The translations under genes were made by a program, and so were the position numbers. A DNA stretch of 47,284 bases from Myxococcales bacterium (GTDB taxonomy: Bacteria; Myxococcota; Myxococcia; Myxococcales; Myxococcaceae), in contig JADLDB010000004.1 of assembly GCA_020846875.1 (NCBI GenBank), forward strand, positions 1 through 47,284. Direction: 5' to 3'. The notes beneath the pieces are model-generated. The model made no database searches, was not told where the DNA came from, and saw only the letters and a list, made by a program, of their open reading frames with translations. Shown piece after piece: positions 7,327 to 21,357 of the stretch; position 1 is the first letter of the stretch, and each line of letters begins with the position of its first letter.

Positions 7327-8253
7327 TCAGCGGAACTGGGGCCGGCCCAGGTAACCGGTGAGGCGGCCGAGCCGCCATTGCGGATCCTTCGGATCCGGGC
7401 CCACGAAGCTGATCGCGCTCCCCAGCATGCCCAGCCGCTTCTGGAACTCCGGGTCCGGCTTGAGCCGCACCTCCAGGTTGGCCTCGCTGTAAGGCAACCG
7501 CTTCGCCAGCTTGAGTGTGCCGGTGACGTTGAGCTGGATGTCGGGGCTCACGTTCTTGAGCTCCTCCACGGTGGCCGCGCCCTTCTCGATCTTCACCTTC
7601 CCGCCCAGATCGCCCACGACGATCTTCGGCAGGTCGACCGGCGTGGGCTCTGGGCCGAACTGCGGGATGGGGATGTTCATCGAGCCGCCGTTGATCGCCA
7701 GGTTCCTGGTGCTGAGCGACAGCGTCCCGCTGGCCTGGGACAGATCCGGCTCGGCCGGGACCGGGCCCGCGGCCTGCCCCTTGGGCAGCGTGACGTCGAG
7801 GTGCGCGTCCACCACGCCCGAGAAGTCGATGCCCGAGAAGCCCTTCAGGTTGCCCTTCGACACGTCCACGTCCTCGGCGTCCAGCCGGAGGCGCACCGAC
7901 GAGAAGCCCGACACCACCGCGGTGATGGTGCCGTCGAAGCCCTTCACCTTCACCTTGAGGCCCGGCGGGAGCAGCGCCGGCCCCACGCTGACCGAGTCCA
8001 GCTTGAGGGGCTCGGGCGGAGGGTCGGTGTCGGCCTTCTTCGAGATCTGCACGTCGTTGGCGCGGATCGCGAACAGCCCCGGGCCCATCGAGCCGATCCG
8101 CACGAAGTAGCCGGCGGCGTCGGCTTCCAGGCGCACCCGATCCTTGAGCGCGTCGTAGGGGAAGGTGAGGAAGAAGGCGATCACCAGCGCGAACAGCGCG
8201 AACGTGGTGTACGCGAGGATCCGCTTCCACAGGCTGGTCTTCTTCTCGGCCAT
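7327..8253 (-). CDS. gspN: Type II secretion system protein GspN
   Basis: 308 residues, last gene of the gsp operon. A single N-terminal membrane segment (about residues 12-31) precedes a periplasmic beta-rich region of the GspN family with recurring strands such as VRLRLDAEDVDVSKGNLKG, like AsmA/LptC-type bilayer-associated proteins. GspN is an optional inner-membrane component found at the end of some gsp operons; its mechanism is poorly defined. It starts 4 bp after the gspM stop. The 3' end faces the C-type lectin gene across only 7 bp and no terminator hairpin is visible there, so convergent transcripts probably overlap. Confidence 0.88.
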   Translation of the reverse strand: MAEKKTSLWKRILAYTTFALFALVIAFFLTFPYDALKDRVRLEADAAGYFVRIGSMGPGLFAIRANDVQISKKADTDPPPEPLKLDSVSVGPALLPPGLKVKVKGFDGTITAVVSGFSSVRLRLDAEDVDVSKGNLKGFSGIDFSGVVDAHLDVTLPKGQAAGPVPAEPDLSQASGTLSLSTRNLAINGGSMNIPIPQFGPEPTPVDLPKIVVGDLGGKVKIEKGAATVEELKNVSPDIQLNVTGTLKLAKRLPYSEANLEVRLKPDPEFQKRLGMLGSAISFVGPDPKDPQWRLGRLTGYLGRPQFR

Positions 8254-8818: not shown

Positions 8819-10399
8819 TCAGCCCTCCCCCTTCGCGGCGTCGTCCGGGCACTCCACCTGGATGTCGAGGCGGAAGGTCACCTTCGCGCCGTCCTTGCTC
8901 TTCTCGACGCGGCCTTCCTTGATCTCCTTGAAGCACTTGTACTGCTTCAGCGTGGCGATCAGATCCTCCATGTTCTTGGAGGTGTTGGCTTCGCAGCGCA
9001 CCGAGATGCGATCGAGGTCGATCACGATCTGCTCCAGCTTCACGGGTGAGTCGTCGGGGATTCGCTGGGTCAGCTCCGCCAGCAGGGTGGTGGCCGAGCG
9101 CTTCGGAATGCCGGCCGCGGGGCTCTCCTGGCCCTGGAGCAGGTTGAGAGCGCGGGCGTAGTCTTTCTCGCACTTGCCGAGGATGCGCTGGGTGACGTCG
9201 CAGAGCACCGCGTCCACCTGCTTCTCGCGGCGCTCCAGCACCGTGTTGCGGACGACGCCGCTGGCGATCAGCAGCACCAGCAGCACCGCGGCGAAGGCGA
9301 TCAGCTGCCCCGCCTTGTCCTTCATCACGTCGAGGTCGCTCTTGAACGCGAACTCCCCCCGGCGCAGGTTGAAGCGGGGCACCTTCGCGCCGGTCGCCGC
9401 GCCTCTGAGCGCCAGCGCGCCGGCCTGCATCGCCTCCACCTGGTCGGGCGCCAGCGGCCCGCGCGCCTCGGGGGGCAGCTCGATCAACCTCACCGGAAGG
9501 CCCAGGTCCTTCTGCAGCTGCCCTGCGATCCCCTTGAGCTTCGCGGAGCCTCCGCACAGCAGCACCTGGCCGATGGGGCGCCTGGTGTGGGCGGTGTAGG
9601 CCTTGAAGGTGGGCCGCAGCTCCCGCAGCACCGGCACCAACGCGCGCACGAAGGCGCCTGCGGCCCGCTCGGCGTCCGGGCCCACCACCTCGTCGCCCAC
9701 CGCGCCGTGCGTCTCTTTCCACGACGCCGCCTCTTCGAGGCCGATCTGGAACTCCTTCGCCAGGGCCTTCGTCAGGGCCAGGCCGCCACCGGCGAAGGTG
9801 CGGGCGTGCTCCACCGCGCCGCCGGGCCGGCCGATGGCCACCGAGACGCGCTCGTGGCCCAGATCCACCACCGCCACCGCGGCGCCGGGATCGAGGTAGG
9901 ACGGCGGCAGGTTGGCGATCGCGTTCTGGTAGACCAGCCCGGAGTGGGTGACGATCCGCGGGTCGAGCTTCGCCTCCTTGAGCAGCTCCAGCACCGGCTT
10001 GAGCTCGGTCTTCTTCATCACGCCCACCAGCAGGCTGGCGCCGCCGGTCTCGCTGGTGGTGAGCTGGTGATCGTAGGCGGCGTCGTCCAGATCGTACGGG
10101 AGCTGAGCCTCCACCTCACCGGACAGGGCGAGCTCGACCTTCTTCGGATCGCTGAAGGGCAGGGTGATGGGGTGGGTGGCGAGCGAGGTGCCAGGCATGG
10201 CCACCACCACCTGGTCGGCGAGGAACGGACCCTTGGCCGACAAGGCCGCCAGGCCGGCCTTCAGGCGGTCGAGGCGCTCCCCTTCGGCGGGCACCGGCGC
10301 GGACAGGTACTGCTTCACCGCCACGCCGCGCATGGAGGTCTCGGCGATCACCGCCTTCACCGTGTAGCTGCCCAGATCCAGGCCGAGCACGCGGGCCAT
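8819..10399 (-). CDS. gspL: GspL-type platform protein with PilM-like actin fold
   Basis: 526 residues. The cytoplasmic part (about 1-350) has a complete-looking actin/PilM-like fold: phosphate-1 motif LGLDLGSYTVKAV at 5-17, phosphate-2-like VAVVDLGHERVSVAIG near 175-190, and adenosine-type VLLCGGSAKLKGI near 285. A membrane helix (about 365-385) is followed by a periplasmic PilN/GspL-like domain. Canonical GspL recruits the GspE ATPase and pairs with GspM. Retention of nucleotide-binding-like motifs makes this protein look like a PilM-PilN fusion. It starts 3 bp after the gspK stop. Confidence 0.88.
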   Translation of the reverse strand: MARVLGLDLGSYTVKAVIAETSMRGVAVKQYLSAPVPAEGERLDRLKAGLAALSAKGPFLADQVVVAMPGTSLATHPITLPFSDPKKVELALSGEVEAQLPYDLDDAAYDHQLTTSETGGASLLVGVMKKTELKPVLELLKEAKLDPRIVTHSGLVYQNAIANLPPSYLDPGAAVAVVDLGHERVSVAIGRPGGAVEHARTFAGGGLALTKALAKEFQIGLEEAASWKETHGAVGDEVVGPDAERAAGAFVRALVPVLRELRPTFKAYTAHTRRPIGQVLLCGGSAKLKGIAGQLQKDLGLPVRLIELPPEARGPLAPDQVEAMQAGALALRGAATGAKVPRFNLRRGEFAFKSDLDVMKDKAGQLIAFAAVLLVLLIASGVVRNTVLERREKQVDAVLCDVTQRILGKCEKDYARALNLLQGQESPAAGIPKRSATTLLAELTQRIPDDSPVKLEQIVIDLDRISVRCEANTSKNMEDLIATLKQYKCFKEIKEGRVEKSKDGAKVTFRLDIQVECPDDAAKGEG

Positions 10400-10401
10400 G
10401 G

Positions 10402-11874
10402 CTACTCCTCCTTCCAGTAGACGAGGCGCCCCAGGCCGTCGTCGAGGCGGATCACCGCGGTGATGGTGCGGGTCACGTCGCCCGCCTCGCCCGTCACGCT
10501 CAACCGGAAGGTCGAGCTCTTGTCGCCGATGAAGCGCTGGTTCTGCACGTTGTTGATGATGGTGGGGTTCACCGCCACGCCGCTGGCGGCCACCAGGTTG
10601 ACGAAGTCGAGCGCGCTCATCCCGAAGAGGGCGAACATGCGGGCGGCGCGGATCTTCTGGATCAGCGTGTCGATGAAGACCGGATCGGAGAGGCGCGGAT
10701 CGGGCCGGGCCGGGTCCGCCACCGTGCGGATCGCCAGCTCGAGCAGCATGGGATCGTCGGTGTTGATGTTGAGGCGCGAGTTGACGTTCGGGTACACGGT
10801 CAGCTTGTCCTTGAAGGCTGCCATGAAGCGGTCGTTGACGCCGTGGACCAGGTAGAGCTCGTCCAGGCTGTCGAAGCGCGCGTTCTTCGCCCGGTACGAC
10901 GGATCGTACTTCACGTAGTTGCCGTTCTCGTCCGAGAAGCCCTTCATGAAGGGGTCGCCCTGGCCGGAGAAGTTCAGCGTGGAGCCGGTCTCGTCTTCGT
11001 CGATCCAGTCGCGCATGGCGATGATCGTGTCGGTGGGCGTCACCTTGACCCGGTTGGAGTCTTCCTTCTCGAAGAGGAACTCGTACTTCTTGTCGCCCAA
11101 GGACGCGACCAACTGGGTGAGCAGCACCTGGGCGGAGAGCTGCGGCGCGTCCAGCTTGTTCAGGTTGATCCGCTCCTCCTCGTCGGTGATCACCGTGTCG
11201 AAGCAGCCGGTGAAGGAGCCGAAGCGCTTGGCCTTCTGCTCCTTCGCCAGCTCGGGGTTCTCGTCGTCGAAGTCGAACTTCTCGTCCTTCGAGGTGAGCT
11301 GGATCGCTTGGCCCTTCTCGTCGATCTCCGGGACCATCAGCTCCAGCATGTGGCAGTCGATCTTCGCCATGCGCCAGAGCTGAATGCTCATCGAGGAAGG
11401 CGCGCCGGCCCCCGCCCCCGGGGCGCCGCCTGCTCCTCCGGCGGCGCCGGCGAGCTGCCCCAGCATGGCTGGGTTGAGCCCCAGGCCCGCCAGCATCGCG
11501 GGGTTGACGCCGGGGGGCAGCCCGCCCCCGCCGCCCGCGCCGCCCAAGAACTGCTGCAGCATGCCGCCCAGGTTGGGGATCTGAATGTTGTCCATCTGCT
11601 TCTGGAAGCGCAGGAGTAGCCGCGACAGCCCGACGCCCGACTTGGCGAGGAAGTGGGCCCGCAGCTCGTCGCGCTGGTTGGTGGCCAGGCGCAGCTCGAC
11701 GACGGAGTTGTACTGCACCTCGTTGGCCACCAGGCCCAGCACGGCCAGGCCCACCAGCACCAGCAGCATGGCCACGCCGCGGCGGGGCTTGAGCGCGGCC
11801 GGACGGGTACCTTCGGCGCGGGGCGCGGGCTGCAGGGGGCCGCGGGCGCGGCGAATGAAGCGCGTGCGGCTCAC
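10402..11874 (-). CDS. gspK: Minor pseudopilin GspK, enlarged by a Gly/Ala-rich insertion
   Basis: 490 residues from GTG 11874, which overlaps the gspJ stop (GTGA) and has GAGG just upstream; the longer upstream frame is a shadow of gspJ. A basic leader ends in Arg-Arg-Gly, followed by VAMLLVLVGLAVLGLVANEV, the pseudopilin hydrophobic helix. Glu at +5 is absent, as expected for GspK at the pseudopilus tip. The body carries the GspK alpha domain (e.g. NINTDDPMLLELAIR). Between about residues 93 and 145 there is a Gly/Ala/Pro-rich low-complexity insertion. GspK proteins are usually near 320 residues, so this one is long. It caps the I-J-K tip complex. Confidence 0.92.
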   Translation of the reverse strand: MSRTRFIRRARGPLQPAPRAEGTRPAALKPRRGVAMLLVLVGLAVLGLVANEVQYNSVVELRLATNQRDELRAHFLAKSGVGLSRLLLRFQKQMDNIQIPNLGGMLQQFLGGAGGGGGLPPGVNPAMLAGLGLNPAMLGQLAGAAGGAGGAPGAGAGAPSSMSIQLWRMAKIDCHMLELMVPEIDEKGQAIQLTSKDEKFDFDDENPELAKEQKAKRFGSFTGCFDTVITDEEERINLNKLDAPQLSAQVLLTQLVASLGDKKYEFLFEKEDSNRVKVTPTDTIIAMRDWIDEDETGSTLNFSGQGDPFMKGFSDENGNYVKYDPSYRAKNARFDSLDELYLVHGVNDRFMAAFKDKLTVYPNVNSRLNINTDDPMLLELAIRTVADPARPDPRLSDPVFIDTLIQKIRAARMFALFGMSALDFVNLVAASGVAVNPTIINNVQNQRFIGDKSSTFRLSVTGEAGDVTRTITAVIRLDDGLGRLVYWKEE

Positions 11875-12539
11875 TCGAACCTCGGGAACTCGGTGTTGAG
11901 CATGATCCGCGTCTGGGTCGAGTAGCGGACCTCCTTGCCCGACTCGTCCACCGCGAAGAGGGTGATCTTCACCCGCGTGGGGAGGACGGACTTCCGCTCG
12001 GTGCGGCGGGTGTCCCACTCGTCCTCCCACTGCTTCTTGTCGCTGTTCCAGTACTGGAACTCGATCTTCTTGGCGCCCTCGAACAGCACGTCCTCGGTGC
12101 CGCCGCGGTCCATGCGCTCCTCGAGCTGCGCGCGCTCCCGGCGGACCAGGTCGCTGCGACCCTTCGCCTTCGGATCCGGCGAGGACTTCACCTGGTACTC
12201 CACCACCATCTGATCCGACTCCTTGGCGTCGGCGTACAGGCGCTGGTGGGACAGGGACGTGAAGAGCAGCTTGTCCCGGGCGCCGACGAAGTTGGTGGGG
12301 CGATCGAAGGCGTCGCGGTAGCGCTTGGAGTCGTAGCGATCGCTGACGTAGGCGGCGCCGATCTCCCGCACCATGCGGTTCATCGCGGTGCGCAGCATGC
12401 GGTAGTGCTCGGCCTGCGACTCGATGATCTCCTTGTTGTTGATGGTGGTGTTGAAGGTGACGCCCAGCACTACGCCGATGAAGGCCGTGATGGCGACGGC
12501 GATCACCACCTCCATCAGGGTGAAGCCCCGGCGGCTCAT
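11871..12539 (-). CDS. gspJ: Minor pseudopilin GspJ
   Basis: 222 residues. It begins MSRRG then FTLMEVVIAVAI, a canonical prepilin cleavage site with Gly at -1, Phe at +1 and Glu at +5. The soluble domain is beta-rich and charged, about the usual family length. ATG 12539 overlaps the gspI stop (ATGA) and is preceded by GGGAGG with good spacing. GspJ binds GspI and GspK to form the pseudopilus tip at the inner membrane. Confidence 0.93.
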   Translation of the reverse strand: MSRRGFTLMEVVIAVAITAFIGVVLGVTFNTTINNKEIIESQAEHYRMLRTAMNRMVREIGAAYVSDRYDSKRYRDAFDRPTNFVGARDKLLFTSLSHQRLYADAKESDQMVVEYQVKSSPDPKAKGRSDLVRRERAQLEERMDRGGTEDVLFEGAKKIEFQYWNSDKKQWEDEWDTRRTERKSVLPTRVKITLFAVDESGKEVRYSTQTRIMLNTEFPRFE

Positions 12540-13480
12540 CGGAAGCCTCCCTGGGGCTTGAGCACGCTGCCGGTGCCGGGCGTCTGCATGCGGCCGGCCG
12601 GTCCGAAGACGTTCTTCAGGCCGGCCCCCATCTCGGGGAGGAGCTGCGCGGGGCTGGACAGGCCGCGCTGGCTGGCGGTCATCAGCGGAGTCCCGTCGTC
12701 GTCCACCATGCCGACGCCGGTGGGCGCGGGGCGGGGGCTGCGCGCCGGCGTGCCGTCGGGTCGCACCCAGGTGTCGCCGGCCGAAGCGCTGGCCACGCCC
12801 GCCGCGCCCGCCGCGCCGCCGTTGCGATCGCTGCCCGGCCCCAGGGACACCACGTGGGTGACCAGATCGAAGCTCTCGGTCAGCTTCCCTTCCTTCCAGG
12901 TGACGGTGAGGTGCACCTCGCGGACCGACTTCTGAAGCTGATCGACCATCTGAGTGAACTGCGCCTGGGCCACCCCCGCCATCGGCCCCAGCGCCCCCAA
13001 GAGGCCCGCCGCGCCGCCCTGTCCTCCGGGCTGGGTGCCGGGGGGCAGCCCCGCCGCCGCCGCGGGATCACCCTTGCCCCCGGCGCCGAAGAGCGCGCCC
13101 AGCAGCCCGGCCGCGCCGCCCGCGCCGTCTGCGCCGGTCCCGCCCAGCGGCAGGTTGAAGAGCGCCCCGAAGAGCTGCTCGGGGGACAGGCCGTTCGTCT
13201 TGGGCACGATGATCTTCGCGCGCCACTTGTAGGACGGCCAGCCTTCGTCGCTGAAGTCGCCTGCGTCCTCGTCGTCCTCGGCGTTGAGGCCTTCGTCGTA
13301 CAGCTTCTGCTCGAGGTCGATCATCTTCCCGCGCGCCAGCAGCGTCGCGACGGTCAGCTTCTTGGCGTACACGTGCGAGTAGACGGCGTTGGAGTTGATG
13401 TCGAGGACAGCCATCAGCGACACGGCGAGGATCGCCAGCGCCACCACGACTTCCAGGAGGGTGAAGGCGCGGCGGCTCAT
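12536..13480 (-). CDS. gspI: Minor pseudopilin GspI, with long low-complexity extension
   Basis: 314 residues from ATG 13480 (ATGA overlap with gspH; GGAGG 10 bases upstream). The N-terminus is MSRRA then FTLLEVVVALAILAVSLMA: a prepilin signal with Ala instead of Gly at -1 and Glu at +5. The typical GspI is only about 120-130 residues. Here the pseudopilin core is interrupted by a Gly/Ala/Leu-rich stretch with two GLLGAL copies (about 115-170) and followed by a Gly/Ala/Pro-rich tail (about 225-314). The core strands (YKWRAKIIVPK; VREVHLTVTWKEGK; SFDLVTHVVSL) are still recognisable. Role: nucleates the pseudopilus tip with GspJ and GspK. Confidence 0.9.
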   Translation of the reverse strand: MSRRAFTLLEVVVALAILAVSLMAVLDINSNAVYSHVYAKKLTVATLLARGKMIDLEQKLYDEGLNAEDDEDAGDFSDEGWPSYKWRAKIIVPKTNGLSPEQLFGALFNLPLGGTGADGAGGAAGLLGALFGAGGKGDPAAAAGLPPGTQPGGQGGAAGLLGALGPMAGVAQAQFTQMVDQLQKSVREVHLTVTWKEGKLTESFDLVTHVVSLGPGSDRNGGAAGAAGVASASAGDTWVRPDGTPARSPRPAPTGVGMVDDDGTPLMTASQRGLSSPAQLLPEMGAGLKNVFGPAGRMQTPGTGSVLKPQGGFR

Positions 13481-14175
13481 GTGCGCGGCACCTCCAGATC
13501 CTCGTTGTGGATCACCGTCTTCCCGGTGAGGGAGGAGATGGTCAGGGTCCAGGTGTTGTCGCCCTGGCGCACCCACACCTGGGCCTTCTCCGTGTAGCCC
13601 TGGGGGAAGAAGTACAGGTACGCGGTGCCGTGCTTCACCGGCTGGCGCTGCTTCTGGGTCCACACCTCGACGGTGACGTTGGACGGCAGCGACTTCTCCA
13701 CCACGTCCTCGCTGGAGAAGGACGAGAACTTCGCCGCTTCCTCCACCCGGTGCTGCTCGCGGGCCTGCAGCTCCTGCACGGTGGGGGCGCTGTCCGACGC
13801 CAGCGGCTTGAAGCGGTCGTCTTCCCGCTCGCGCTCCCCGTCCCGCTTCTCCTTCGAGTTGGCCAGGCGCAGCTCGTCGTCGCGCTTGGCCCCCGCGGTG
13901 ACGCCGCCCTTCGCGCACTCCGCCCGCCAGGTGACGTGCCCGTCTTCCTCGCGCTCCTCGGGCAGCTCGAAGACCAGCCGGCAGGTGCGGCCGGACAGCG
14001 CCGCCGAGTCGTACAGCGCGCGGATGGTGCCGGCCAGCTCGGCCGCCGACTCCTTCGCCTTCGCGCCGGTGAGCGCGCCCACGCTGAACACCACCGCGGC
14101 GAACAGCAGCACGATGATGCCCAGGGCGACGGTGATCTCGATCAGGGTGAGCCCCCTGGGCGCGCGGCGCTTCAC
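13477..14175 (-). CDS. gspH: Minor pseudopilin GspH
   Basis: 232 residues from GTG 14175. This start is supported by GGAGG five bases upstream and by a GTGA overlap with the preceding microprotein stop. The leader KRRAPRG is followed by LTLIEITVALGIIVLLFAAV (Gly -1, Glu +5). The soluble domain holds a highly charged, probably coiled insertion at about residues 105-170 rich in Glu/Arg/Lys, then beta strands typical of GspH (YLYFFPQGYTEKAQVWV). GspH links the tip complex to the GspG fibre. Its stop overlaps the gspI start. Confidence 0.9.
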   Translation of the reverse strand: MKRRAPRGLTLIEITVALGIIVLLFAAVVFSVGALTGAKAKESAAELAGTIRALYDSAALSGRTCRLVFELPEEREEDGHVTWRAECAKGGVTAGAKRDDELRLANSKEKRDGEREREDDRFKPLASDSAPTVQELQAREQHRVEEAAKFSSFSSEDVVEKSLPSNVTVEVWTQKQRQPVKHGTAYLYFFPQGYTEKAQVWVRQGDNTWTLTISSLTGKTVIHNEDLEVPRT

Positions 14176-14285
14176 AGTAGCCTCCGCAGCAGATCGACGA
14201 CCAGCCACACCGCGGCGCTCGCGCCCAGCGCGATCCCGAAGGTGAGGGGCGAGAGGCCCTGGCTCTTGTCGTCGGTCTTCTTCAT
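14172..14285 (-). CDS. 37-residue single-pass membrane microprotein between gspG and gspH
   Basis: An ATG at 14285 lies 4 bases after the gspG stop, and the TGA at 14174-14172 overlaps the gspH GTG start (GTGA). The product is 37 residues: a charged N-terminus (MKKTDDKSQG), one predicted membrane helix (about 14-31, TFGIALGASAAVWLVV) and a basic end (RRLL). The gspH ribosome-binding sequence GGAGG sits inside this ORF. Third codon positions are almost all G or C. The position between essential genes, exact coupling and codon bias support translation. I recognise no family. It could instead be a leader that only serves to couple gspG and gspH translation. No Shine-Dalgarno is visible, so re-initiation is likely. 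Confidence 0.68.
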   Translation of the reverse strand: MKKTDDKSQGLSPLTFGIALGASAAVWLVVDLLRRLL

Positions 14286-14289
14286 CGGC

Positions 14290-14715
14290 TCACTGCTTGG
14301 GGCTGGCGGAGTCCTTGCTGGAGAGATCGGTGTCGTACTCGCTGCCCCCGGGGGCGCCGTCCTTGCCGTAGGACATGATCACCGGCTTGCCGCCCTCGTT
14401 GAGGTACACGTACTCGTGATCCCAGGGATCGACCGGCATCTTCTCGAGGATCTGCGCGTCGACGAGCGCCTTGAGGCCTGCGCCCGTGTCCGGGTAGTTC
14501 CCCTTCTTCGCGTAGTAGGTCTTGAGCGCGTTGCCGATGTTGGCGATGTCCATCTTCGCGCGGTCCACCTTGGCCTCTTCGAGGCGGGGGATGACGGCCA
14601 CGCCCACCGCGGCCATCAGCAGCGAGAGGATGGTGATCACGACGATGATCTCGATCAGCGTCATGCCGCGCGGGCCTGCGCGGCGGCGGGCGAGCTGTCG
14701 GGGGAAGGACTTCAT
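14290..14715 (-). CDS. gspG: Major pseudopilin GspG
   Basis: 141 residues from ATG 14715, which is preceded by AAAGGA about 10 bases upstream. GTG 14742 (150 residues), overlapping the preceding microprotein stop as GTGA, is the alternative start. A basic leader ends ARRRAGPRG, followed by MTLIEIIVVITILSLLMAAV (Gly -1, Glu +5). The body holds the highly conserved GspG pattern: IGNALKTYYAKKGNYPDT, then VDPWDHEYVY and the Ca-binding C-terminal loop region ending DTDLSSKD. GspG polymerises into the periplasmic pseudopilus that acts as a piston. The full signature makes this one of the surest calls in the window. Confidence 0.96.
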   Translation of the reverse strand: MKSFPRQLARRRAGPRGMTLIEIIVVITILSLLMAAVGVAVIPRLEEAKVDRAKMDIANIGNALKTYYAKKGNYPDTGAGLKALVDAQILEKMPVDPWDHEYVYLNEGGKPVIMSYGKDGAPGGSEYDTDLSSKDSASPKQ

Positions 14716-14738: not shown

Positions 14739-14852
14739 TCACAGGTAGAGCAGCACGCCCACGCAGACCAGCGAGGCGGCCAGGGCCAGGAGGGTGGTGG
14801 TGACGGCGCGTTGGATCAGCTGGTCGCGCCGGGAGAGGACGGTGGGGCTCAT
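14739..14852 (-). CDS. 37-residue single-pass membrane microprotein between gspF and gspG
   Basis: ATG 14852 overlaps the gspF stop by one base (TGATG), and TGA 14741-14739 overlaps the alternative gspG GTG start. The product is exactly 37 residues: a basic N-terminal segment (VLSRRDQLIQR), then a hydrophobic helix from about residue 17 to the end (AVTTTLLALAASLVCVGVLL). The positive-inside rule predicts a cytoplasmic N-terminus with the C-terminus at or beyond the periplasmic face. GC3 bias is strong. There is no sequence similarity beyond composition with the other 37-residue ORF. I know no named family; it is a candidate platform-associated T2SS microprotein or a translation-coupling peptide. 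Confidence 0.68.
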   Translation of the reverse strand: MSPTVLSRRDQLIQRAVTTTLLALAASLVCVGVLLYL

Positions 14853-16123
14853 CAGTGCACCATGGAGTTCATCTGGAGAATGGGCATCAGGATGGAGAAG
14901 GCGACGAAAGAGATGACCGCCCCCATCAGCACGATCATCATCGGCTCGAGCAGGGCGGTGAGCGCGCCGATCCGCACGTTGACCGACGACTCGTAGCTCT
15001 CGGCGACGTTGAGCAGCATGTCCTCCAGTTGGCCGGACCGCTCGCCGATCGCCACCATGTGGAAGACCAGCGGAGGAAACTCCCCGGACTTCTTGAGCGG
15101 GTTGGCGATCGACTCGCCTTCGCGAATGGCGTCGCGCGCGGTGTCGATCACCGCCGACATCACCGAGTTGGTGATCACGTTCTTCACGATGTCGAGCGCG
15201 GTGAGCAGCGGCACGCCGGACTTGAGCAGCGTGGCCAGGGTGCGCGCGAAGCGGGCCACCGCCAACTGGCGGACCAGGGGACCGAAGACGGGGATCTTCA
15301 GCACCACCCGGTCCCACTTCGGCTTGCCCGACTCCGAGCGCGACCAGCGCAGGAAGGCGACCGCCCCGCCGATCAACATCGGCACCACGATGAACCAGTA
15401 GTCCTGCAGGAACTTCGAGCTGAAGATCAGCAGCTTGGTCGTCCAGGGCAGGGTGACCTTCATGTCGTCGAAGATCTTGGTCACCTTGGGCACCACCACC
15501 GTCATCAGCATGATCAACACGCCGCCGCCGATAACCATCATGATCACCGGGTAGATCATGGTGCCGACGATCTTCTGACGGAGCCGCGCCTGGCCTTCGG
15601 TGAACTCCGCCAGCCGCAGCAGCACCGAGTCCAGCGCGCCCGAGCTCTCACCCGCGCGGATCATGTTGATGAACAGCGGCCCGAAGGTCTTCACGTGGTG
15701 CCCCAGCGCGTCGGCCAGGCTGGATCCCTCGTTCACCCGCTGCTTCACGTCCGAGAGGATGCGCTTGAGCTGCTCCTTCTCCACCTGGTCCACCATGGCG
15801 GTGAGCGCTTCCACCAGCGTCACGCCCGCCTTGAGCAGCGTCGCCAGTTGCCGGGTCATCACCGCGATGTCGTCGGTGTTGACGCCTCCGCGGGCCAGGC
15901 GGCGCAGGTTGATGTCCTGCGCCAGCACCGAGCCGGCCGCCTTCGCCGCCCCCTTCGCCGTCTTGCCGGGCTTGAGCGAGCCTTCCGCCTCGGCCACCAC
16001 GTCGGTGACGAAGATCCCGTCCTTCTTGAGCACCGCGCGCAGGCTCCTCGGCGAGTCGGCCTCCTTGAGGCCGGTCACCGACTTCCCCGCGGCGTTGAGC
16101 CCTTTGTACTCGAAGACGGCCAT
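14852..16123 (-). CDS. gspF: Type II secretion inner-membrane platform protein GspF
   Basis: 423 residues. N-terminal MAVFEYKGLNAAGKSVTG is the classic start of the GspF/PilC family. Two homologous T2SSF cytoplasmic domains follow (about 85-205 and 285-405), each with the GESSGALDSVLLRLAE / GERSGQLEDMLLNVAE pattern, and three membrane segments (about 185-207, 235-252, 395-415). A Lys/Ala-rich linker at about 45-70 separates the N-terminal helix. GspF is the polytopic platform protein that couples GspE ATP hydrolysis to pseudopilus assembly. It starts 6 bases after the gspE stop. Confidence 0.96.
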   Translation of the reverse strand: MAVFEYKGLNAAGKSVTGLKEADSPRSLRAVLKKDGIFVTDVVAEAEGSLKPGKTAKGAAKAAGSVLAQDINLRRLARGGVNTDDIAVMTRQLATLLKAGVTLVEALTAMVDQVEKEQLKRILSDVKQRVNEGSSLADALGHHVKTFGPLFINMIRAGESSGALDSVLLRLAEFTEGQARLRQKIVGTMIYPVIMMVIGGGVLIMLMTVVVPKVTKIFDDMKVTLPWTTKLLIFSSKFLQDYWFIVVPMLIGGAVAFLRWSRSESGKPKWDRVVLKIPVFGPLVRQLAVARFARTLATLLKSGVPLLTALDIVKNVITNSVMSAVIDTARDAIREGESIANPLKKSGEFPPLVFHMVAIGERSGQLEDMLLNVAESYESSVNVRIGALTALLEPMMIVLMGAVISFVAFSILMPILQMNSMVH

Positions 16124-16129
16124 GGCGGC

Positions 16130-17917
16130 TTAGAGGTCCTCCTGCGTCACCGACAACACCTCGGCGATGGTGGTCTGCCCCTGCGCGACCTTGAGCGCGC
16201 CGTCGTCGAGCAGCGTGAGCATGCCCTTCTCCATCGCCTTCTTCTTGATGGTGCCGGAGTCGACGTTCTTGAGGATCAACTGCCGGACGTCGTCGTCGAC
16301 GATGAGCAGCTCGTAGATGCCGGTGCGCCCCCGGTAGCCGGCGCGCCCGCAGGCGGGGCAGCCCCTGGCCCGGTACGTGGTCTCGCCGCCCAGGGCGCGG
16401 AAGCGGTCGCGGCTCATGCCCAGCTTGGAGAGCTCTTCGTCGGTGGGCTCGTGCGGCTCGCGGCACTCCATGCACACCCGGCGCACCAGGCGCTGCGCCA
16501 TCACCGCCATCAGCGACGACGACACCAGGAACGGCTCTACCCCCATCTCCACCAGGCGGGTGACGGCGCCGGCCGCGTCGTTGGTGTGCACCGTGGAGAA
16601 CACCAGGTGGCCGGTGAGCGACGCCTCGATGGCGATGTTCGCCGTCTCCTTGTCGCGGATCTCCCCGACCATGATGATGTCCGGGTCCTGCCGGAGGAAG
16701 CTGCGCAGCCCCGACGCGAAGGTCAGCCCGATCTTCGGGTTGATCGGCATCTGGTTGATGCCCTTGAGCTGGTACTCCACCGGATCCTCGACGGTGAGGA
16801 TCTTCACCTCCGGCGTGTTGATCCGCGTGAGCGCGCCGTACAGGGTGGTGGTCTTCCCCGAGCCGGTGGGGCCGGTGACCAGGACGATCCCGTGGCTGCG
16901 GCGGATCAGCTCGTCGATCTCTTTGAGGATCCCCGGGTTCATCCCGATCTCGGCCAGGTCGAGCAGGGTGGCGCTCTTGTCGAGCAGCCGCATGACGATC
17001 GACTCCCCGTGCACGGTGGGGATGGTGGACACGCGAATGTCGATGTCTCGGCCGGCCAGCTTGATCTTGATGCGGCCGTCCTGGGGCAGACGCTTCTCGG
17101 CGATGTTCAGCTGCGCCATGATCTTCACGCGGCTGATGATCGAGTTCTGGTAGCGCTTGGGCGGCTTGATGATGTTGTGCAGCACGCCGTCGATCCGGAA
17201 GCGCACCGCCAGGTCGCGCTCCATCGGCTCTATGTGAATGTCGCTGGCCCGCTCCTTCGCCGCGCGGAAGAGCAGGGAGTTGACCAGGCGGATGATCGGC
17301 GCCTCGTCGCCCGAGTCCAGCAGGTCCTGCGCTTCCTCCAGCACCTGCTCGGCGGCGTCGAGGTCCTGCGCCTCCATCTCGCCCACCACCTGCTCCGCTT
17401 CGTTCAGGCTGCGGTCGTAGACGGAGTTGATGGCGTCGATGATCGTGCTGCCGCGCGACACCCGGGGCTCCACCTCGCAGCCCAACAGCATGCGCGCGTG
17501 ATCGAGCAGCGCCGTGTCCAGTGGATCGGCCACCGCCACCGCCACGAAGTCGCCCACCCGCTTCAGGGGGATGAACTTGGCCTGCTTGGCGAAGTTGATC
17601 GGCACCTGCTTCACCAGCTCGGGATCGACGTCGTCCACCGAGATGAAGGCCAGGTACTCGAGGTCGAGCTGGGCACCCAGGGCCCGGCTCACGTCCTCCT
17701 CGCTGACGGCCTTGAGGCCCACCAGCACCTCACCCAGCCGGCCGCCCTTCTCCTGCTGCGCCGCCAGCCCCTCCTCCAGCTTCTCGCGGGGCAGGCCAAA
17801 GCTCTCCACCAGGATCTCGCCCAGCGGGCGCCCGAAGAGGTACGCGGGGCCGTGCGTCACGACGTGCGTGCGCTCGGTCCGCGGCTCCTCCCGGACGTTG
17901 TCGGGCGACTCGCTCAT
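16130..17917 (-). CDS. gspE: Type II secretion ATPase GspE
   Basis: 595 residues from ATG 17917 (TGATG with the gspD stop; GTG 17920 is an equally coupled alternative). N1E/MshEN-like domains (about 20-200, with LFGRPLGEILV and LGEVLVGLKAV) precede the secretion ATPase core. The Walker A motif GPTGSGKT is at 349-356; Asp-box TVEDPVEY and Walker B-like IIMVGEIRD follow, then the His-box region LVFSTVHTNDA. A tetracysteine zinc motif is present: Cys482-x2-Cys485 ... Cys520-x2-Cys523, typical of GspE. It is a cytoplasmic hexamer that drives pseudopilus assembly and docks on GspL and GspF. Confidence 0.96.
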   Translation of the reverse strand: MSESPDNVREEPRTERTHVVTHGPAYLFGRPLGEILVESFGLPREKLEEGLAAQQEKGGRLGEVLVGLKAVSEEDVSRALGAQLDLEYLAFISVDDVDPELVKQVPINFAKQAKFIPLKRVGDFVAVAVADPLDTALLDHARMLLGCEVEPRVSRGSTIIDAINSVYDRSLNEAEQVVGEMEAQDLDAAEQVLEEAQDLLDSGDEAPIIRLVNSLLFRAAKERASDIHIEPMERDLAVRFRIDGVLHNIIKPPKRYQNSIISRVKIMAQLNIAEKRLPQDGRIKIKLAGRDIDIRVSTIPTVHGESIVMRLLDKSATLLDLAEIGMNPGILKEIDELIRRSHGIVLVTGPTGSGKTTTLYGALTRINTPEVKILTVEDPVEYQLKGINQMPINPKIGLTFASGLRSFLRQDPDIIMVGEIRDKETANIAIEASLTGHLVFSTVHTNDAAGAVTRLVEMGVEPFLVSSSLMAVMAQRLVRRVCMECREPHEPTDEELSKLGMSRDRFRALGGETTYRARGCPACGRAGYRGRTGIYELLIVDDDVRQLILKNVDSGTIKKKAMEKGMLTLLDDGALKVAQGQTTIAEVLSVTQEDL

Positions 17918-20409
17918 CACTCGAGCTCCGGCTGGACCTTCAGCGTCTCGGGGTTGGGCTCCTGCACCGGCACCGGCGGCGGCGCGGGGGTGCCTTCGGG
18001 GGCGATCATCGGCGTGGGCGCGGGCGGCGCCTCGCTGTCCGGTGGCGAGCTGGACGGGTTCGACGGAGGCCCCTGGGGGGTGATGACGCGCTCGCCCTCG
18101 CCGCCTGGCCCGCCGTTCTCCACCTTCCGCAGCTCCTTGTTGAGCAGCTGCCCCATGCGCGCCAGCGGGCCAGGCTTGCGCGCGAAGTCGATGGCCACGT
18201 CGTAGGTGGTGGTGGCCCCGTAGAACTGCTCCACGAATTGCTGCCGCTCCTTCATCTTCCGCTCGAAGATCCGCCGGAAGTCCGACGAGTCGCGGATGAT
18301 GTAGGGCGTCAGGAAGAGCAGCAGGTTGGTCTTGATCTTCTGCCGCGTCTGGCTGCGGAAGAGGTGCCCCAGCACCGGAATGTCGCCCAGCAGCGGCACC
18401 TTGGACACGCTCTCCACCAGGCGGTCCTGCATGATCCCGCCGATCACCACCGTCTCCTGGTCCTTCGCCACCACCGTGGTCTTCGCGGTGCGCTTGGAGG
18501 TGGTGGGCCCGAGGATCGGATCCTTGGAGGCGATCTCTTCGATCTGCTCGGTGATCACCAGGCGCACGTAGTCGCTCTCGTTGATCTGCGGCTTCACCGA
18601 CAGCTTCAGGTCCACGTTCTGCCGCTGGATGGAGCCGAAGGGGATGCCCGAGAAGCCCGCGGTGTTCAGGCCGGAGGTGCCGGTGGCGCCCCCCAGCCCG
18701 GGGATCCCGCTGAAGCCGCCGGTCGAGAAGCCGGACTGAAACGGCACGTTCTGGCCCACGGTGATCTCCGCCTCCTCGTTGTCGGTGGTGAGGATGTGCG
18801 GGGTGGACAGCACGTTCACGTCGCTGGACGTCTGCAGCGCGTTGATCACGATGCCGAAGGACGGGATCTCGATCCCCCCGATGTTGAGGCCGGGGATGGT
18901 GGGGCCCTGCAGGCCGGCCAGGAAGCCGCCCATGCTGACCAGGTTGGCCACGCTGATCGACGGCGGCAGCCCGGCGCCCTTGGTGTACTTGGTGCCGACG
19001 AAGGCCGGCACCGTGCCCTGCTCGGTCTGCACAGGGATGCCGGTGTGCACGTTGACGCCGAGCTCGGCCGAGCGGTCCAGGTTGACCTCCATGATCACCG
19101 CCTCGACGAAGACCTGGCGGCGCATGATGTCCAGCTTCTCGATCACCCGGAGGATGCTCCGGTAGTCCGTCTGGCTGGCGATGATCACCAGCGAGTTGGT
19201 GGACTTGTCGGCGCTGATCTTCACCTCGCCCTGGAACAGCTCGGCCGCGCCACCGGGCGCGCGGGCTCCACCGGGCGGAGGCGGGGGGGCCTTGGGCTTG
19301 TTGGCGGTGCCCTGGGCCAGCGTCTGCAGCGTCGACGCCACGTCCTCCGCGTTGGCGTTCTCCAGGTACAACACGTTGATCCGCCCCTCGCCGGAGATGG
19401 GAATGTCGATCTCGCGGATCAGCGCGTCGATGCGGTCCATCGCGGCCGGGCTGGCGATGACGATCAGCTTGTTGGTGCGCTCGTCGGGGATCAGCTGCGA
19501 CAGCGTGGCGGCCCCACCCCCGCCCTCGGCCTCTCCGTGCGGCGCGCTGGGCGGCGGCGGCGCTCCCGGCACCGGCGGAGGCGCCATCACCTTTGCTTGC
19601 CCCGGCCGCTGCCCCGGCCGGTTGGCCTTGGTCTCGAACAGCTTCTGCACCTTGTCCGCGATCTCCTGCGCCGTCGCGTACTTGATCTGGATGACGCGGA
19701 TCGAGTCGGACGCCGAGCTCGAGTCGAGCTGCTCGACGATCTTCTCCAGGCGGTGCATGTTCGAGCCCAGATCGTTGACCAGGATCGTGTCCGGCTGGAA
19801 GGGGATGGTGTCGCCCGACGGCGTGACCAACTGCTGCAGCACGCCGCGGAGCTGCTCGATCTCCACGTGCTTCACCTTGAAGATGCGCGTCACCATCTGC
19901 TCGTTGGTGGTGTAGACCTCGCTGGGATCGGTGATGGTCGGGATCGGGAACTGCTTGGCCCGCTGCTTGTCCACGATCTTCATGAACTTGCCGTGCTCGT
20001 AGGCAGCCAGGCTGTTCGCATCGAGCGCGGCGAGGAAGGCGGCGTAGAACTGGTCGGCGTTGACCTCCACCTTCCCGTTCTCTGGGCCGATGATGGAGAT
20101 CTTCCCGCGGATGTTCTCTGGCAGGATGAACGTCTTGCAGGTGACGTCCGAGACGGTCTGCACCAGCTTCTCGATCTCTACCTTGTCGAAGTAGATGTTG
20201 TAGCGGCCCTTGCGGCGCTGCTCCTCGCAGGACGGACGCTTGGGCGCGATGGTGGCCTCACCGGCGGCGGGCGCAGCGCCAGCGGGCGCAGGCGCGGGCA
20301 GAGCGGGCGCACGAGGCCCGGGTGGGCGCGGGCCGGGGGGCGGCGGAGCAGCGGGCTGGGCCAGCGCGACCAGGGACCAGCAGAGCGCGACGAGGGACAG
20401 GCGTTTCAT
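17917..20409 (-). CDS. gspD: Type II secretion outer-membrane secretin GspD
   Basis: 830 residues. A signal peptide (about 1-17, cleaved near SLVALA) is followed by a Pro/Ala-rich linker (to about 50), then N0 (YNIYFDKVEIEKLVQTVSD) and three KH-like N domains. A Gly/Pro-rich loop (about 270-300) and a second one (about 385-395) interrupt the N domains. The secretin barrel region holds EAVIMEVNLDRSAELGVN and the signature VPLLGDIPVLGHLFRSQ at about 690. The C-terminus is Pro/Glu-rich. No pilotin or S-domain match can be judged by eye. It forms the outer-membrane channel. Confidence 0.96.
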   Translation of the reverse strand: MKRLSLVALCWSLVALAQPAAPPPPGPRPPGPRAPALPAPAPAGAAPAAGEATIAPKRPSCEEQRRKGRYNIYFDKVEIEKLVQTVSDVTCKTFILPENIRGKISIIGPENGKVEVNADQFYAAFLAALDANSLAAYEHGKFMKIVDKQRAKQFPIPTITDPSEVYTTNEQMVTRIFKVKHVEIEQLRGVLQQLVTPSGDTIPFQPDTILVNDLGSNMHRLEKIVEQLDSSSASDSIRVIQIKYATAQEIADKVQKLFETKANRPGQRPGQAKVMAPPPVPGAPPPPSAPHGEAEGGGGAATLSQLIPDERTNKLIVIASPAAMDRIDALIREIDIPISGEGRINVLYLENANAEDVASTLQTLAQGTANKPKAPPPPPGGARAPGGAAELFQGEVKISADKSTNSLVIIASQTDYRSILRVIEKLDIMRRQVFVEAVIMEVNLDRSAELGVNVHTGIPVQTEQGTVPAFVGTKYTKGAGLPPSISVANLVSMGGFLAGLQGPTIPGLNIGGIEIPSFGIVINALQTSSDVNVLSTPHILTTDNEEAEITVGQNVPFQSGFSTGGFSGIPGLGGATGTSGLNTAGFSGIPFGSIQRQNVDLKLSVKPQINESDYVRLVITEQIEEIASKDPILGPTTSKRTAKTTVVAKDQETVVIGGIMQDRLVESVSKVPLLGDIPVLGHLFRSQTRQKIKTNLLLFLTPYIIRDSSDFRRIFERKMKERQQFVEQFYGATTTYDVAIDFARKPGPLARMGQLLNKELRKVENGGPGGEGERVITPQGPPSNPSSSPPDSEAPPAPTPMIAPEGTPAPPPVPVQEPNPETLKVQPELE

Positions 20410-20424: not shown

Positions 20425-21357
20425 TTAGCGGACGTTGTAGGTCTTCCGGACGGTGGAGCCGTTGCGCTCGACCTCGATGTCGATGCGCGAGGCCTCTTTC
20501 AGCTTGGAGTAGATCTCCAGCGCCTTCTCCGGGCTGTTCAGGTCGTACCCGTTGATGCGCTTGATCACGTCGCCGTTCTGAATCCCGATCTTCGTGTAGA
20601 TGGAGTCGGGGCGGATCGAGAACAGCTTGAAGCCCTGGGCCACGCCGTCCTTGAAGGCGGGCACGATGCGCGCCTGCATCGCCACGTCGTTCAGGTTGGA
20701 CAGCGTCTTGTCGATCTCCGCGCGGGGGATCTCGTAGTCGTTGTCCGACAGCTGCTTGACGCCGGCGCCCAGTCCCTTGGAGTCCGGCGGCGCCTCGGCC
20801 CTCACCGGAGCGGCGGCGATCACCGGGCTGGGCGGTGGCGCCACGGCGATGGCCTCGCCTCCACCCGGGGTGGCGTCGATGAACTCGCGGCGGTTGTTGT
20901 TGATGATGATCACCCGCAACCGCTCGATCTCGACGATCTCTGCGCCCTGCACCCGGTCACCGATCATGTACGTGTTGGTCTTCAGGGTGACGACGTCCTG
21001 GATCGACGCCACCGACCACTCCGGGAAGGCGTCCGACACCAGGGTGCCCAGCAGCTTGAGCCGCAGCGTGGTGTGCACCGGCGCGGAGTTGAGATCCACC
21101 GACGGCTCGGTCGGCTCGACCACCTCGGGCTCGGGCTTGGGTACGGGCAGGCCAGTCACCCTCGCGACCGTGTCCACGTTGAGTTGTGCCAGCGGCTCTA
21201 CCCTCGGCGCGACCGCTACCGTCCGCGCCTGGCCCGTCGGCAGCGGCAGCAGCGATACCTCGATGAAGGCATTCACCGTCCTCGAGACGAGGAACATCAC
21301 CCCGAACAGGAACAGGAGGTGGACGATCCAGAAATGGCGCTTGAACAGCAGTTCCAC
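20425..21357 (-). CDS. gspC: Type II secretion protein GspC with PDZ domain
   Basis: 310 residues, first gene of the operon. A short cytoplasmic N-terminus and one membrane helix (about 9-29) precede a Pro/Glu linker and the HR domain (about 95-150: LKLLGTLVSDAFPEWSVASI ... YMIGDRVQGAEIVEIE), the usual contact to the GspD N0 domain. A PDZ domain ends the protein (about 235-305: GFKLFSIRPDSIYTKIGIQNGD). GspC links the inner-membrane platform to the secretin and contributes to substrate choice. gspD starts 15 bp downstream. The region upstream carries a TGACAAATTGTCA palindrome 83 bp before the start. Confidence 0.94.
   Translation of the reverse strand: MELLFKRHFWIVHLLFLFGVMFLVSRTVNAFIEVSLLPLPTGQARTVAVAPRVEPLAQLNVDTVARVTGLPVPKPEPEVVEPTEPSVDLNSAPVHTTLRLKLLGTLVSDAFPEWSVASIQDVVTLKTNTYMIGDRVQGAEIVEIERLRVIIINNNRREFIDATPGGGEAIAVAPPPSPVIAAAPVRAEAPPDSKGLGAGVKQLSDNDYEIPRAEIDKTLSNLNDVAMQARIVPAFKDGVAQGFKLFSIRPDSIYTKIGIQNGDVIKRINGYDLNSPEKALEIYSKLKEASRIDIEVERNGSTVRKTYNVR

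Follow-up and report, generated by a model that had tools for sequence, protein, structure and literature searches.

The type II secretion system (T2SS) is a well-studied machine, the parts list of which is usually taken as closed. In other membrane complexes, small proteins have been described alongside the large subunits. CydX, a single-helix microprotein of 37 aa encoded in the cytochrome bd oxidase operon, has few conserved residues and a clade-limited distribution and is proven to be required, while cydAB operons of other types encode further small proteins, CydY and CydZ (PMC4325964). AcrZ is a small membrane protein bound to AcrB (PMC7267776). Here, two short membrane peptides, p1 and p2, encoded on either side of the major pseudopilin gene of a myxobacterial T2SS operon, were examined, with emphasis on p2.

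The window, the whole stretch of DNA that was analysed, comprises 47,284 nucleotides. Its minus strand carries a type II secretion operon in the order gspC, an ORF at the gspD position, gspE, gspF, p1, gspG, p2, gspH, a pseudopilin gene at the gspI position, gspJ, gspK and gspL, with gspN further on. The features are as follows:

20425..21357, minus strand: gspC (GspC_delta)
17917..20409, minus strand: gspD by position only, an 830-aa ORF with gspC on one side and gspE on the other
16130..17920, minus strand: gspE, ATPase (T2SSE, MshEN)
14852..16123, minus strand: gspF, inner-membrane platform protein, its stop overlapping the p1 start by 1 nt (TGATG)
14739..14852, minus strand: p1, the second 37-aa membrane peptide, in the gspF-gspG slot, not related to p2 and far more widely conserved
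14290..14715, minus strand: gspG, major pseudopilin (T2SSG domain, prepilin motif GMTLIE)
14172..14285, minus strand: p2 microprotein gene, 37 aa, predicted single-pass membrane helix, own Shine-Dalgarno (SD) absent, start 4 nt past the gspG stop
14181..14185, minus strand: GGAGG, SD of gspH, inside the Arg-Arg codons of p2 and 5 nt ahead of the gspH GTG
14172..14175, minus strand: GTGA, in which the p2 stop (TGA) and the gspH start (GTG) share 4 nt, an overlap of 1 or 4 nt in 18/18 homologues
13477..14175, minus strand: gspH, minor pseudopilin (N-terminal prepilin motif GLTLIE)
12536..13480, minus strand: pseudopilin at the gspI position (N_methyl motif)
11871..12539, minus strand: gspJ (family-library match)
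10402..12030, minus strand: gspK (coordinates are the ORF extent)
8819..10399, minus strand: gspL, with PilM and PilN regions within one protein
7327..8253, minus strand: gspN (family-library match)

The gspL of the window is a fusion of the PilM-PilN type and not a classical GspL match. A second, distant gspG-like gene with 45% identity is present elsewhere in the same genome (L002, G000:C117:43116-43505), with no gspF within the 3.4 kb around it.

The p2 ORF (minus strand, 14285-14172) has an ATG start, 37 codons and a TGA stop at 14174-14172, the gspH GTG beginning at 14175, and its product is MKKTDDKSQGLSPLTFGIALGASAAVWLVVDLLRRLL. Its hydrophobic stretch has a Kyte-Doolittle mean of 2.08 over 17 residues, and the AlphaFold2 model consists of one helix spanning residues 13-36, with pLDDT values of 94-95 for residues 21-37. 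The ORF coordinates, hydrophobicity and predicted helix agree with the sequence-only reading, in which a 37-residue single-pass membrane microprotein had been placed between gspG and gspH. No significant match to p2 was obtained in Pfam or NCBIfam, the known T2SS families included, and comparison with solved structures returned nothing meaningful. The prepilin-peptidase motif (G[FLM]TLIE) is absent from p2 and from all its homologues and p2 gave no N_methyl match; lacking this N-terminal motif, p2 does not qualify as a pseudopilin (GspG/H/I/J/K). No paper describing p1 or p2 was found in a literature dominated by open access.

The distribution of p2 was examined by searching gspG through the family and the order and then reading each gspF-gspG and gspG-gspH spacer; many of the p2-bearing genomes, among them the ones retrieved by name, were assembled from metagenomes. 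Homologues of p2 occupy the same slot, always directly after gspG, in 18 myxobacterial genomes of 8 genera, all with profile E-values <= 7e-14, and at E <= 1e-4 the profile recovers exactly these 18 carriers and none elsewhere among 195 sampled genomes of the phylum. When the whole order was searched at E <= 0.05, the match ranking just below the true homologues had an E-value of 1.4e-3. The weak matches inspected (E-values of 1e-3 to 0.05) lay in unrelated membrane segments or non-specific frames. In two genomes the match fell on the membrane segment of a 417-aa ORF that has no relation to p2 and resembles a ring lipoprotein of the T3SS type; in G036 it fell on the N-terminus of gspH, and in G048 on a long frame without specificity. 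The homologues are 36-48 aa long; L11 and P13 are invariant, G10 is present in 17/18, the position of W27 is aromatic in 18/18 and that of D31 is D or E in 17/18. Absence of p2 from several family members (L020, L012, L051, L053, L054, L091, L093, L106 and L119) indicates that it is dispensable.

Between close pairs, dN/dS is 0.33 for p2, 0.14 for gspG, 0.22 for gspH and 0.40 for p1. The p2 core outside the ribosome-binding (RBS) region has a pN/pS of 0.455 as against a mean of 1.09 +/- 0.16 in neutral simulations, none of the 300 being as low, and a stop codon was gained in 266 of the 300 simulations of p2 and in none of the observed homologues. The sequence-only reading had asked for a survey of the gspG-gspH spacers for a conserved short helix, a survey that here yielded the p2 homologues of the 18 genomes, and had allowed that the peptide might be absent from close relatives or that only the RNA (GGAGG) might be conserved. 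Neither is the case, p2 being present in close relatives and constrained outside the RBS region. This conservation marks p2 as a genuine gene, maintained in one branch of the myxobacteria.

The p2 stop overlaps the gspH start in all 18 genomes, either by 4 nt (ATGA/GTGA) or by 1 nt (TGATG), and in most of them the gspH SD (GAGG/GGAG/GGAGG-type) lies inside the last p2 codons. An SD of its own is mostly missing for p2, the start of which is found -4 to +16 nt from the gspG stop. That p2 is coupled to gspH by GTGA and contains the ribosome-binding sequence of gspH had been noted from the window, where the overlap is 4 nt and GGAGG stands at 14185-14181; this linkage at the level of translation is kept in all 18 carriers. 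Short overlaps are typical for subunits of heteromeric complexes, and reinitiation requires very short distances, termination-reinitiation dropping sharply beyond about 20 nt (PMC10666635). Since the spacings here are short, a hand-over of ribosomes from gspG to p2 and from p2 to gspH would be implied. RNA folding of the p2 spacer gave no signal beyond composition (z = 0.01 in the window, mean z of -0.89 over 18 oriented spacers), and thus no indication of a structured RNA element or leader. The constraint on the peptide and the overlap with gspH in all 18 genomes together mean, therefore, that peptide and coupling are both conserved.

A finding beyond the earlier reading is a GspG-like protein in the same slot of the sister clade. 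In 62 of the 92 family genomes (L021 and 61 others), the gspG-gspH slot encodes a protein of 143-167 aa with an N-terminal helix and a T2SSG pseudopilin domain but without the prepilin motif; all 10 members tested match PF08334 (Pfam T2SSG), and the protein is probably an uncleaved pseudopilin-like component. L100 carries a helix-less version. The two slot occupants are mutually exclusive (18 and 62 genomes, none with both). In a GspF+GspG tree, each of the two family clades has its own occupant: p2 in the one, where L093, L012 and the small-genome group L051/L053/L054 have lost it, and the GspG-like protein in the other, where L020, L091, L106 and L119 are without it; support for the split of the clades is weak (68-76%). 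Lineages without p2 (L093, L119, L051) have gspH placed a few nt past gspG. The small-genome relatives L051, L053 and L054 (2.1-2.7 Mb) still have the T2SS genes and p1, but p2 is gone and the gap between gspG and gspH has closed. Profile comparison of p2 with the anchor of the GspG-like protein detected no similarity (hhalign probability 1.5%), and the mean net charge of the N-terminal flank is +2.7, strongly basic, in the GspG-like protein and 0.0 in p2. The slot is, therefore, filled by different predicted membrane proteins in the sister clades.

The other peptide, p1, is a single-helix microprotein with the family core DRWIQRV..LLALAA.L..VG..LY, which nearly all genomes of the family carry once, beside gspG, and which extends to some other families of the order. 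It matches no Pfam or NCBIfam family, and small genes such as p1 and p2, neither of which belongs to such a family, are easily overlooked in annotation. The p1 homologues are 30-87 aa long, their lengths varying independently of those of p2, and in the sister clade (loci L021-L123) they bear a C-terminal tail of roughly 10-25 residues. Both p1 and p2 are 37 aa long in the window, as had been remarked, and this equality is a coincidence of the window genome, because the homologues span such different ranges. Flanking charges hint weakly that p1 and p2 would tend to insert in opposite orientations.

Taken together, we consider it rather probable that p2 is a translated single-pass inner-membrane microprotein serving as a small accessory subunit of the T2SS apparatus, in which it would most likely pack against helices of the pseudopilins or of the platform as the pseudopilus is assembled; in more general terms, p2 is probably a small subunit of the secretion machine, or a helper to it, that has escaped recognition. 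Ribosomes terminating at gspG would reinitiate on p2, given the absence of its own SD and the start at -4 to +16 nt, and would be passed on to gspH at p2 termination by way of the 1- or 4-nt overlap and the SD inside p2. The peptide would insert in the inner membrane, where specific helix-helix contacts may be made by a face of small residues (GASAG/A), by the near-invariant aromatic and by the D/E with which the helix ends, and such packing could affect pseudopilus assembly. Partial rate correlation of p2 is strongest with gspH (r = 0.58), as against r = 0.35 with p1 and 0.09 with gspG. These values, which are confounded by lineage rates, weakly favour GspH and the minor pseudopilins over GspG as partner. 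GspF, the trimeric platform driving pseudopilus assembly (PMC10790770), is another possible partner. A dN/dS higher for p2 than for the large gsp genes and the absence of p2 from several family members count against a role as accessory subunit.

Several other explanations were weighed against this role. A chance ORF without function is hardly credible: short ORFs are common in this GC-rich sequence, and an ORF of at least 30 aa arose at the p2 position in 6% of 20,000 dinucleotide shuffles of the spacer, but the ORF was TM-like in 0/20,000. Since the shuffles give no such ORF and the peptide is under purifying selection, with homologues in 8 genera, p2 is beyond chance, and its conservation already refutes this explanation. 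The p2 ORF could also act mainly as a translation bridge, which links gspG translation to that of gspH and sets the ratio of minor to major pseudopilin, the peptide being a by-product. The invariable stop/start overlap, the gspH SD embedded in most homologues and the lack of an SD for p2 in most genomes, coupling requiring less than about 20 nt (PMC10666635), are all in keeping with such a bridge. It is nevertheless unlikely, as the part of the p2 core that precedes the RBS region shows amino-acid constraint, with the P, the aromatic and the acid/basic pattern conserved, as the lineages L093, L119 and L051 manage by simply placing gspH shortly after gspG, and as RNA structure is wanting both in the window and over the 18 spacers.

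Still less probable is that p2 is a remnant, the truncated membrane anchor of the uncleavable GspG-like protein of the sister clade, even though the two share the slot, a polar N-terminus followed by one helix and the lack of a prepilin motif, have a strictly exclusive distribution and belong to clades that are sisters in the GspF+GspG tree. Their profiles show no detectable similarity, the orientation of p2 may be opposite to that of the GspG-like protein because the N-terminal flank is strongly basic only in the latter, and p2 is not decaying, because it is under selection. A comparably low probability is assigned to the proposal, made in the sequence-only reading, that p1 and p2 flank GspG symmetrically and act on it together. 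Both are single-pass and encoded in one operon, both are missing in G013 (L012 / L167), a genome of a p2-bearing genus in which the gspF-gspG spacer is shortened to 53 nt, and their partial rate correlation (r = 0.35, permutation p = 0.001) is modest and a hint only, weaker than that between p2 and gspH. The symmetric pair is not supported, however, since p1 is family-wide and p2 clade-limited, p1 is retained without p2 in L020, L051, L091, L093, L106 and the whole sister clade, and lengths vary independently; profile comparison detected no homology (hhalign probability 0.6%), and the two are rejected as one family.

The role as an accessory subunit can be extended, tentatively and with clearly less confidence, to the slot as a whole, which may encode a clade-specific bitopic regulator of pseudopilus assembly. 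One clade would use a microprotein of 37-48 aa and its sister an uncleavable pseudopilin-like protein, solutions that are not homologous but would serve a single task, such as capping, priming or limiting the pseudopilus; the family-wide p1 would stand beside them. The translation-coupled p2 and its exclusive pseudopilin-like replacement suggest an extra component at pseudopilus assembly. Since complete genomes exist for some genera of the sister clade, cultured strains should allow p1 and the GspG-like protein to be tested.

In comparison with known systems, p2 shows two features of operon-embedded small accessory membrane proteins: a single helix, predicted for the window peptide, with a length under about 50 aa in the window and in all homologues, and a conserved linkage to one complex, lying directly after gspG and overlapping gspH in 18/18. 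Like the T2SS components (GspC-GspO, GspA/B, GspS), it is encoded in the gsp operon and predicted to be membrane-embedded, but it is far smaller and has neither a prepilin motif nor a family match. With the GspG-like protein of the sister clade it shares the place, the single N-terminal helix and the lack of a prepilin-peptidase motif, the two being mutually exclusive; that protein, however, is of 143-167 aa with a periplasmic-type pseudopilin domain and no detectable sequence relation to p2. AcrZ, likewise a small transmembrane protein, binds the membrane part of a large envelope machine and so tunes it. It is not known to be encoded in the operon of its own pump, unlike p2, which sits within the operon of its putative machine, and the two are not homologous. 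The closest parallel is CydX, another single helix whose gene sits among those of a membrane complex, and which likewise conserves few residues and is confined to certain clades. The complexes differ, CydX is proven to be required whereas p2 is a putative subunit, and no sequence relation is claimed; should p2 work like CydX, the resemblance would be one in kind and not of membership or homology. As in the operons encoding CydX, CydY and CydZ, the gspG-gspH slot has different occupants in different clades.
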